Positions 8,257 through 11,085 of a stretch of DNA of 39,224 bases are shown piece by piece. Location of the stretch: assembly GCA_009886125.1 (NCBI GenBank), contig VFJK01000096.1:1-39224 (forward strand). Reading direction: 5' to 3'. Under the pieces are notes generated by a model that worked only from the letters and a program-made list of their open reading frames with translations, did not search any database and had not been told where the DNA came from. The position numbers and the translations under genes were made by a program. This DNA is from Geobacter sp. Its GTDB lineage: Bacteria; Desulfobacterota; Desulfuromonadia; Geobacterales; DSM-12255. Each line of letters opens with the position of its first letter. The stretch's first letter is position 1.

Positions 8257-9375
8257 TTATAGACGCATTGGCATTATGACTGCCAATAAATCTTCAGAAC
8301 CGGCCTGTTTTAATATTGCCGGGGACATTTCATCTCTCAGTAAGAGTATCACTTCATCGTCAGTAATTATATTGAGAACATCTATCAGGTATCTTGCGTT
8401 GAAGCGGGTAGTTATCTTTTCACCGCTATAATGCACCTCAAGCTCTTCACGGGCCTCGCCCAGCTCAGGATTACTGGATGAAATCTCCATAGAATCATTC
8501 GTTATCTCAAATTTTATACCTTTGAATTTTTCACTGGATAGAATTGCCATCCGTTTCAGTGAATGAAGAAAAATCTCTTTTTTTACCTTTATCTCCCTGT
8601 TGTTACCAACTGGCACTACCCTGGTATAATCCGGGAATTCTCCATCCACAAGTCGCATTACAACGGTACTGTTCCCTTTGATCACTGCTGCACTGTTTTC
8701 AATGAAACCAAGTTTAAAATCACCTTCTTCTTCATCACATAGTTTTTTCAGTTCCAAAATACCTTTTTTGGGGAAAATAACCCCTTTCTCAAGACTTTCA
8801 ATATCAGAACCGTCTATATTATTTTCGGAAATTGAAAGTCTGTGCCCGTCCGTCGCAACAAGCACCAGTCTATGACCTTCCGGACTTTCATTTATCTTGA
8901 ACAATATTCCATTAAGATTGTATTTTGTTTCATCGTGACAAATGGCATACGAAGTTTGTTCAATCATTTTAGCTAATTTAGAAGAGTCGAGAGTCAAAAA
9001 ACCACTTTCATTTATTTTTGGAAAAAACGGAAACTCGTCTGGAGAAAGGCCGACTATGCTGAATTTGGCCTTTCCACAAGTTATTTCAACCCAATCATTT
9101 TCTTTTGTAATCAGTCTAACCGGTTCTTCAGGTAGCTCCCTTATTATTTCATACAGTTTTTTTGCTGACAATGTTATGCGACCATCCTGGATGACTTTTG
9201 CCTGATAGCTGCTTTTCATTCCAACTTCCAGATCAGTGGCTATAAAGGTGAGCACGTTATCGGCCGCTTCAATAAGGACATTTGAAAGAATCGGCATAGT
9301 GTTTCGTCTTTCTACGATTCCTTGGATTTTTTGTAGTGCTTTGACGAAAGCATCTTTTTCAATGGTAAATTCCAT
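8257..9375 (-). CDS. dnaN: DNA polymerase III sliding clamp, beta subunit
   Basis: DnaN forms the ring that holds DNA polymerase III on its template and also serves repair enzymes and the regulatory inactivation of DnaA. The 372-residue length is usual for the family. It starts MEFTIEKDAFVKALQ and contains FIATDLEVGM and VATDGHRLS, conserved in domains 1 and 2, and ends with IMPMRL, the clamp C-terminus that lies by the hydrophobic partner-binding pocket. It is the second gene of the dnaA-dnaN-recF-gyrB-gyrA series. The gap between dnaA and dnaN is 216 bases and carries DnaA boxes and a DnaA-trio tract, so dnaN expression may be tied to origin occupancy. Confidence 0.98.
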   Translation of the reverse strand: MEFTIEKDAFVKALQKIQGIVERRNTMPILSNVLIEAADNVLTFIATDLEVGMKSSYQAKVIQDGRITLSAKKLYEIIRELPEEPVRLITKENDWVEITCGKAKFSIVGLSPDEFPFFPKINESGFLTLDSSKLAKMIEQTSYAICHDETKYNLNGILFKINESPEGHRLVLVATDGHRLSISENNIDGSDIESLEKGVIFPKKGILELKKLCDEEEGDFKLGFIENSAAVIKGNSTVVMRLVDGEFPDYTRVVPVGNNREIKVKKEIFLHSLKRMAILSSEKFKGIKFEITNDSMEISSSNPELGEAREELEVHYSGEKITTRFNARYLIDVLNIITDDEVILLLRDEMSPAILKQAGSEDLLAVIMPMRL

Positions 9376-9417
9376 GATACCCCCTGTTTCTATTTCTATT
9401 TATATTAAATAAAAGAT

Positions 9418-9435
9418 TAGTAGCAGTAGTAATAG
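9418..9435 (+). other. DnaA-trio tract
   Basis: Six consecutive triplets read TAG TAG CAG TAG TAA TAG on the plus strand, immediately followed by AGCC and the DnaA box TGTTGAAAA (9440-9448). The known trio consensus is 3'-GAT-5' repeated away from a DnaA box across a GC spacer, and both phase and direction match here. An AT-rich stretch adjoins the tract at 9391-9417. Confidence 0.75.
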
Positions 9436-9570
9436 AGCCTGTTGAAAACAGTAAAAACACTATAACCATTCGAAAATACTGATAATAAAGGTGTTAATAA
9501 GTCTGTGTTTGTATTGTTGGTGAACTAATTTTTTGCACAGGTAGAAAAATTTTTCAACAGGCAAAATGAA

Positions 9571-9579
9571 TTATCAACA
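9571..9579 (+). promoter_or_regulatory. DnaA box between dnaA and dnaN
   Basis: TTATCAACA is an accepted strong variant of the DnaA box TTATCCACA and is identical to both boxes of the palindrome upstream of dnaA (11064-11085). It lies 12 bases beyond the dnaA stop codon. Confidence 0.7.
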
Positions 9580-9591
9580 TGATTTAAGGTA

Positions 9592-10938
9592 TCAACTTAA
9601 CAGCTTTCGCTTAATTGCTTCATAACTATTTAATATATCAGGCTTGTCCTGCATTACAGAACTGATTTTCTTAACTGCATAGATAACAGTCGAGTGGTCT
9701 TTGCCGCCGAATTTCTCTCCGATTTCAGGGTAAGATGCTTTTGTCAGCTCTCTGGATATAAAAATTGCTATCTGTCTGGGGATGACAAATGTCCTGAGCC
9801 TTTTTTCGGATTTAAGATCTGAAACTTTGAGTTTAAAATGATCGGCGACATGCTTTTGAATTGATTCGATACTGATTTCTTTGCTTTTGTCGACAATGAT
9901 ATCTTTCAAAATATCTTTTGCCATGGCGAGATTTATCTTATTTTTTGTCAGGCTCGCATATGCACCGATCCGAATGAGCATTCCCTCTATTTCCCTGATA
10001 TTACTTGCGCTGCTGGAACCGATAAGTAGTGCAACATCATCAGGAAGGTCTATTTTGTTTAATTCAGCTTTTTTCTTGAGGATGGCAACTTTTGTTTCGA
10101 CATCCGGTGGCTGAATATCGGCAATAAGGCCCCATTCAAATCTTGACCTGAGGCGTTCTTCCAGGCCAGGTATATCTTTCGGGAATTTATCAGATGTGAT
10201 TACTATCTGTTTGTGCGACTCGTAAAGTGCATTAAATGTATGAAAGAACTCAACCTCAGTTGCTTCACGACCCGCCATGAACTGGATGTCGTCTATAAGA
10301 AGAAGATCGGTTTTTCTGAATTTTGAGCGGAAATCCTCCATTTTCTTATGTCTGATACAGTTAATCATCTCATTCATAAAGGTTTCAGAGGTGTAGTAGC
10401 ATATTTTGGCATCAGGATTTCTGCTGAGAATCTGGTTACCTATCGCAACCATAAGATGAGTCTTGCCGAGACCCGTTCCGCCGTAGATGAAAAGAGGGTT
10501 ATATTTGTGAGCAGGTGCATCAGCAACTGCCTGTGATGCTGCATGAGCAAATTCATTGCTTGTTCCGCATACAAAAGTGTCGAAGGTGTATCTCGAATTC
10601 AGCAAAGTTGTAAATGTTGCACTCTTGCCTTTGTCAGGAGGTGAAAATTCAGCCCTGCTTTCTTGAAAAGAGTCCGGATTTTTCTCAGGCTCAGCAAAAG
10701 AATCCGCCACATTTAATTCGACTTCGATCGCATCGTTGGTCAGCCCCAGGATGACATCTTTGATAAGAGAAATGTACCTGTCTTTTATCTCCTTTTTATG
10801 AAACTCTGTTGGAACCTCCAGGATGAATGAAGATTCATCCGAGTCAATAAATCGTATCGGTTTTATCCAGGTTCGGTAAGTCTGCGGTGTAAGAACCTGC
10901 TCAATTTTCTGCTTGGCTTCGTTCCATATAAGTTTCAT
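9592..10938 (-). CDS. dnaA: Chromosomal replication initiator protein DnaA
   Basis: DnaA binds its boxes at oriC, oligomerises with ATP and opens the duplex. The 448-residue protein has domain I at the N-terminus (MKLIWNEAKQKIEQ), a variable linker around residues 78-112, and the AAA+ domain III with Walker A GGTGLGKT (153-160), Walker B LLIDDIQF and the box VII region ASNIREIEGMLIRI. Domain IV carries the DNA-binding signature KDHSTVIYAVKKI near the C-terminus. The gene heads the dnaA-dnaN-recF-gyrB-gyrA series. Boxes on both sides suggest autoregulation as well as origin function. Confidence 0.99.
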   Translation of the reverse strand: MKLIWNEAKQKIEQVLTPQTYRTWIKPIRFIDSDESSFILEVPTEFHKKEIKDRYISLIKDVILGLTNDAIEVELNVADSFAEPEKNPDSFQESRAEFSPPDKGKSATFTTLLNSRYTFDTFVCGTSNEFAHAASQAVADAPAHKYNPLFIYGGTGLGKTHLMVAIGNQILSRNPDAKICYYTSETFMNEMINCIRHKKMEDFRSKFRKTDLLLIDDIQFMAGREATEVEFFHTFNALYESHKQIVITSDKFPKDIPGLEERLRSRFEWGLIADIQPPDVETKVAILKKKAELNKIDLPDDVALLIGSSSASNIREIEGMLIRIGAYASLTKNKINLAMAKDILKDIIVDKSKEISIESIQKHVADHFKLKVSDLKSEKRLRTFVIPRQIAIFISRELTKASYPEIGEKFGGKDHSTVIYAVKKISSVMQDKPDILNSYEAIKRKLLS

Positions 10939-11063: not shown

Positions 11064-11085
11064 GTTATCAACATGTGTTGATAAC
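11064..11085. promoter_or_regulatory. Palindromic pair of DnaA boxes
   Basis: GTTATCAACA (11064-11073) and TGTTGATAAC (11076-11085) are exact inverted copies separated by two bases, giving two exact TTATCAACA boxes head to head. A one-mismatch box, TTATGAACA, lies just outside at 11053-11061. The site could serve as origin recognition and as the operator for dnaA autoregulation. Confidence 0.8.

Follow-up and report, generated by a model that had tools for sequence, protein, structure and literature searches.

The dnaA-dnaN gap of a Geobacterales genome carries, at positions 9391-9448 of the window (the whole 39,224-nucleotide stretch of DNA analysed here), an element that is very probably the basal unwinding system (BUS) of oriC, the module that opens the DNA at the chromosome origin, judging from its sequence and from that of its relatives. 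It is a further instance of the already known DnaA-trio/BUS module class, and it marks the likely melting site of a Geobacterales origin. The layout known from Bacillus subtilis is the rule across Desulfuromonadia, and one sister family appears to have changed the origin triplets together with a DnaA residue predicted to contact them.

The sequence-only reading had taken the host for something like a deltaproteobacterium, and the source genome is indeed a Geobacterales MAG (3.57 Mb in 192 contigs); the closest named relatives of its DnaA are uncultured Geobacter or Geobacteraceae MAGs at ~80% identity. The identities of dnaA, dnaN, recF, gyrB and gyrA were confirmed with NCBIfam, and on the - strand they follow one another in the order dnaA, a 216-bp gap, dnaN, recF, gyrB, gyrA, with rpmH (read by eye), rnpA, yidC and mnmE lying on the + strand, divergent from the dnaA side. 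A 518-aa ORF adjoining gyrA (428-1984, - strand) matches nothing in NCBIfam, and in Pfam only HEAT repeats, below threshold. The coordinates of the features considered below are collected in the table.

Table. Features of the dnaA-dnaN region of the window
Feature	Positions	Strand	Remarks
dnaN	8257..9375	-	TIGR00663
AT-rich flank, from trios toward dnaN	9391..9417		92.6% AT
DnaA-trio array, six in-register triplets	9418..9435	+	direct sequence reading
GC-rich spacer, 4 nt	9436..9439		AGCC on + (GGCT in dnaN sense)
DnaA box of the putative BUS, TTTTCAACA, facing the trios	9440..9448	-	TGTTGAAAA on +; 2 mismatches to TTATCCACA
Weak DnaA box TTATTAACA inside the gap	9492..9500	-	
DnaA box TTTTCAACA, dnaA-proximal	9551..9559	+	orientation opposite to the BUS box
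DnaA box TTATCAACA, dnaA-proximal	9571..9579	+	
dnaA	9592..10938	-	TIGR00362, 448 aa
Codon AAT, DnaA Asn189 (B. subtilis Asn187)	10372..10374	-	alignment
Inverted DnaA box pair TTATCAACA	11065..11084		second box cluster, upstream of dnaA toward rpmH

The positions first proposed for the triplets and the box proved exact on re-reading of the sequence. In dnaN sense the gap runs ...ACTG TTTTCAACA GGCT CTA TTA CTA CTG CTA CTA ATCTTTTATTTAATATAAATAGAAATAG... ATG; the corresponding + strand triplets are TAG (9418), TAG (9421), CAG (9424), TAG (9427), TAA (9430) and TAG (9433), with a central A in all six. The box-proximal trio is the one at 9433-9435 (TAG, that is, 3'-GAT-5'), and TAA, TAG, CAG, TAG and TAG follow it in descending coordinates. 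Under the search rule of PMC8287927, which asks for at least three contiguous 3'-NAN-5' trios no more than 16 bp from a box with at most two mismatches, the window has six trios across a 4-bp spacer. Box and trios are co-oriented, the trio strand runs 3' to 5' away from the box, and AT-rich DNA lies beyond; the flank reaches the AT content given in the table against 72% for the dnaA-dnaN gap and 53% for the window, and is likely the rest of the unwinding element. The surroundings are those of an oriC region, with dnaA next to it, a cumulative GC-skew minimum (shallow, and computed within the window) at 9229, ~200 bp from the array, and a cluster of DnaA boxes, since exact TTWTCMACA boxes number six in the window against 1.5 expected and five of the six fall between 9440 and 11084.

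This arrangement resembles that of B. subtilis oriC incC (DnaA-box#6/7 and trios), which likewise lies between dnaA and dnaN and passes from box through GC-rich spacer, central-A trios (six in the window) and AT-rich DUE to dnaN; the claim that the window has the B. subtilis unwinding layout thus holds for order, orientation, spacing and place alike. There are differences. The window box is TTTTCAACA rather than TTATCCACA, and of the tandem pair only the box nearer the trios is good, its upstream partner (9449-9457) being degenerate with at least five mismatches by eye. Tandem box pairs occur in 57% of predicted BUS and are not required, single-box modules being accepted (PMC8287927). What counts against the BUS reading is that a spacer of 4 nt separates the sole good box of the window from the trios, the usual distance for a sole or better box being 10-13 bp (PMC8287927). 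The occurrence of a BUS in a deltaproteobacterium is itself unsurprising, because such modules have been predicted in 1755 of 2070 bacterial origins (85%; PMC8287927), and in Bdellovibrio bacteriovorus, historically a deltaproteobacterium, unwinding has been measured at an oriC in the dnaA-dnaN gap with four GAT trios (PMC5124646). The Bdellovibrio origin shares with the window its gene context and the placing of the trios by DnaA box 1 after a short GC-rich region; unlike the window, whose six trios are known from sequence, it has four trios and eight boxes, two of them within dnaA (PMC5124646).

The window DnaA aligns end to end with the B. subtilis DnaA of the BUS cryo-EM entry 8btg. Residues are numbered here by the B. 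subtilis DnaA sequence, which agrees with the 8btg alignment. The ISM residues that contact ssDNA are kept in the window DnaA (equivalents of Asn187, Ile190, Ile193, Arg202 and Glu228), which together with the strand polarity adds to the likeness to B. subtilis; unlike B. subtilis, residue 196 is Lys and not Asn. In B. subtilis, DnaA protomers capture two bases of every triplet between them, and the central base makes a bond to Asn187 through its amino group; A or C is accepted at the trio centre and G or T is poor (PMC10721633). By analogy with the work on B. subtilis, H. pylori and Bdellovibrio, we envisage that DnaA would dock on the double-stranded box 9440-9448, and that box-bound DnaA would nucleate an ATP-DnaA filament onto the + strand, growing from 9433 to 9418 by a protomer for each triplet. 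In every triplet two bases would be held between protomers, with the central A bound by the side chain of DnaA Asn189, and the filament would then melt the AT-rich DNA toward dnaN, leading to helicase loading. If homology is a guide, the origin could in this way be placed to within tens of bases.

The sequence-only reading had made its case depend on conservation of the triplets in relatives, and in a comparison set of ~200 genomes the layout recurs in nearly all readable gaps. The Geobacterales dnaA-dnaN gap is mostly 205-234 bp long, with the box and then the triplets ~50-100 bp before dnaN in the relatives examined; the box-then-triplets layout is likewise present in ~60 genomes from other genera across Desulfuromonadia, and in the phylum sample triplets are recognisable in many genomes that keep dnaA adjacent to dnaN. 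The polarity of the trios relative to the box is identical in relatives. A clear array is absent from one Asn genome, L168. Most other relatives have a good upstream tandem box; the degenerate form is that of the window genus and the genomes closest to it (L002-L005). Within the family of the window the arrays are in register in 12 of 12 members, two of them with an interrupting triplet, and a one-base slip is found in none. Such a slip within the array (e.g. CTA T CTA CTA CTA) is carried by 4/4 loci of the neighbouring family f2 and 21/27 of f3 (among them L007, L012, L017 and L034), as well as by 12 of 50 loci in other Desulfuromonadia orders. Because a one-base deletion slows opening in B. 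subtilis (PMC6669920), these conserved slips are a natural oddity.

One sister family, f4 (L037-L056 and L098-L155), which includes Trichlorobacter lovleyi SZ and Pelobacter propionicus DSM 2379, departs from the pattern. Desulfuromonadia outside it have Asn at DnaA 187 and central-A triplets, whereas residue 187 in f4 is Tyr (L140 included) or, in the genus of T. lovleyi and one further species, His. At the homologous site the family reads, in dnaN sense, box-GGAC-CAA CAA C GTA CTA CAA-GG, with a perfect CAA CAA CAA CAA CAA, five in register, in L134, so that its trio strand is 3'-GTT-5' with a central T against 3'-GAT-5' elsewhere. Within 24 nt after the box, canonical triplets number 3-7 and CAA 0-2 in the 94 Asn genomes, and in the 55 Tyr genomes there are 0-3 canonical triplets, with CAA present in every case, 1-5 each; the CAA counts of the two groups differ with a Mann-Whitney p of 4e-26, which, the genomes being related, is not a p for independent events. 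For these counts boxes were chosen by a log-odds picker, with ~20 anchors set by hand and L146, L149, L150, L164 and L168 dropped, and triplets were counted free of register, since the longest run in any register is uninformative when shifted CTACTA frames also read as central A. In the His genomes the arrays (e.g. CTAATAATAATAA) are less clear, as two registers are possible, and a central T appears only if the 4-nt spacer of the others is assumed.

From this covariation we infer, and on balance favour, a code in which DnaA residue 187 would determine the central-base specificity of the origin triplets, the change N187Y/H having accompanied a rewrite from 3'-GAT-5' to 3'-GTT-5' and both having been reversed once. 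A single member of f4 has Asn, L044, from genome G038 (assembly completeness 99%, contamination 1%), and it is there that the reversal is seen. Its array, CTA CTA T CTA CTA CTT, has five canonical central-A triplets against a maximum of three in any Tyr genome. In a DnaA tree built with residue 187 masked, L044 falls within f4 (100/100), within the Tyr clade (100/100) and within a genus-level group (100/99), its exact position inside that group being weakly supported. The only DnaA columns in which it has gone back to the majority of the Asn genomes are 187 and residue 64 of domain I; residue 187 is the sole reversion in the AAA+ domain, and I190V, an f4-wide change at another contact residue, stays.

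A different account of f4, applying to this extension and not to the window, would have its triplets decay after a relocation of the origin or a takeover by some other opening mechanism, with the link to residue 187 a founder effect. N187Y/H does map to a single stem branch of the DnaA tree, where the Tyr/His family has 100/100 support with residue 187 masked, so that most of the correlation amounts to one event, and other domain III columns are also fixed-different in f4. The CAA array, however, is strongly conserved rather than decayed, its second triplet being C-A-A at 83/92/96% across Tyr genomes, and in L044 the return of Asn came with a return of central-A triplets, with I190V and most of the other residues peculiar to f4 left in place. 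Because a canonical box-plus-trio module upstream of dnaA is found in none of 60 Tyr/His genomes, it is unlikely that the origin module has moved to another place beside dnaA in f4. We regard decay with a founder effect as unlikely, though it is the rival that survives best. A DNA-pattern search across 395 phylum genomes matched the Tyr/His motif in DnaA only within f4 (G015, G018, G020 and G025), and none of 16 other motif-matching loci that were checked, a subset of the off-family matches, encodes DnaA. Because the residue-187 code then rests on two independent events, one gain and one reversal, its causal reading is a strong lead, short of proof. Because some Tyr genomes, such as L056, keep several central-A triplets, Tyr may alternatively relax the central-base preference rather than switch it cleanly, with relaxation followed by drift under constraint. 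The Asn genome without a clear array, L168, also counts against the code.

If residue 187 does set the central base, f4 would be a case in which nature has recoded how the initiator reads a single strand. A full-text search of the open-access literature found no report of covariation between residue 187 and the central base. Triplets without a central adenine have been suspected, not shown (PMC8287927), and origin finders that require a central adenine may overlook real modules. The covariation and its paired reversal also bear on how different bacterial DnaAs read different single-stranded origin motifs, a matter in which the reason for the difference between E. coli and T. maritima DnaA has been stated as unresolved (PMC10316083). 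E. coli DnaA needs TTGT and TTATT for recognition of the single-stranded DUE on its T-rich strand (PMC5742627), and its residues at the positions of 187 and 190 are Gln and Val. Its TTGT is similar to the Tyr family's TTG triplets, a suggestive parallel that concerns the variant family only, and the residue-187 code, if true, would perhaps offer a bridge to E. coli-type recognition. The window itself is of the Asn/central-A type, and E. coli oriC differs from it in lying away from dnaA and in using IHF and a DnaA oligomerization region.

The same covariation bears on whether the triplets of the window are merely an easily melted, AT-rich DUE whose sequence DnaA does not read. The region is AT-rich, and in T. 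maritima the annotated DnaA-trio adjacent to the box plays only a supporting part, and the TAG repeats that are essential stand at a greater distance (PMC10316083). Against this, CAA and CTA are equal in AT content, yet each is kept in step with DnaA residue 187, and trio mutants matched in composition fail in B. subtilis (PMC6669920); we thus consider a plain DUE quite improbable, and prefer triplets read by DnaA. As for a chance run of triplets in AT-rich intergenic DNA, with origin function elsewhere in the dnaA region, a gap of this AT content does give 52 five-trio matches among 20,000 two-strand shuffles, but the idea is hardly credible when six strict triplets arise in 2 of 20,000 dinucleotide-shuffled versions of the 216-bp gap and a TTWTCMACA box with at least four strict trios within 16 bp in 0 of 20,000, when in relatives the strict pattern ([CT]T[AG])x6 does not occur in 1.40 Mb (both strands) of sequence beyond the dnaA-dnaN gap, when place and orientation are constant in relatives across the class, and when the rpmH-dnaA gap of the window holds no trio array. 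Across both strands of the window the same strict pattern has a single occurrence, the array itself.

An alternative or second trio module upstream of dnaA was also considered and set aside, a box with four trios being absent there in the 91 genomes scored. Three f4 genomes have an extra dnaA-like gene on another contig (L156, G060:C86; L157, G094:C26; L158, G073:C218), with a dnaN-like start near that of L158; these may be mobile copies or contamination. In L034 (G016) and L042 (G025) the dnaA-dnaN gap is longer, at 537 and 431 bp, and in both the box-triplet module still lies beside dnaN.
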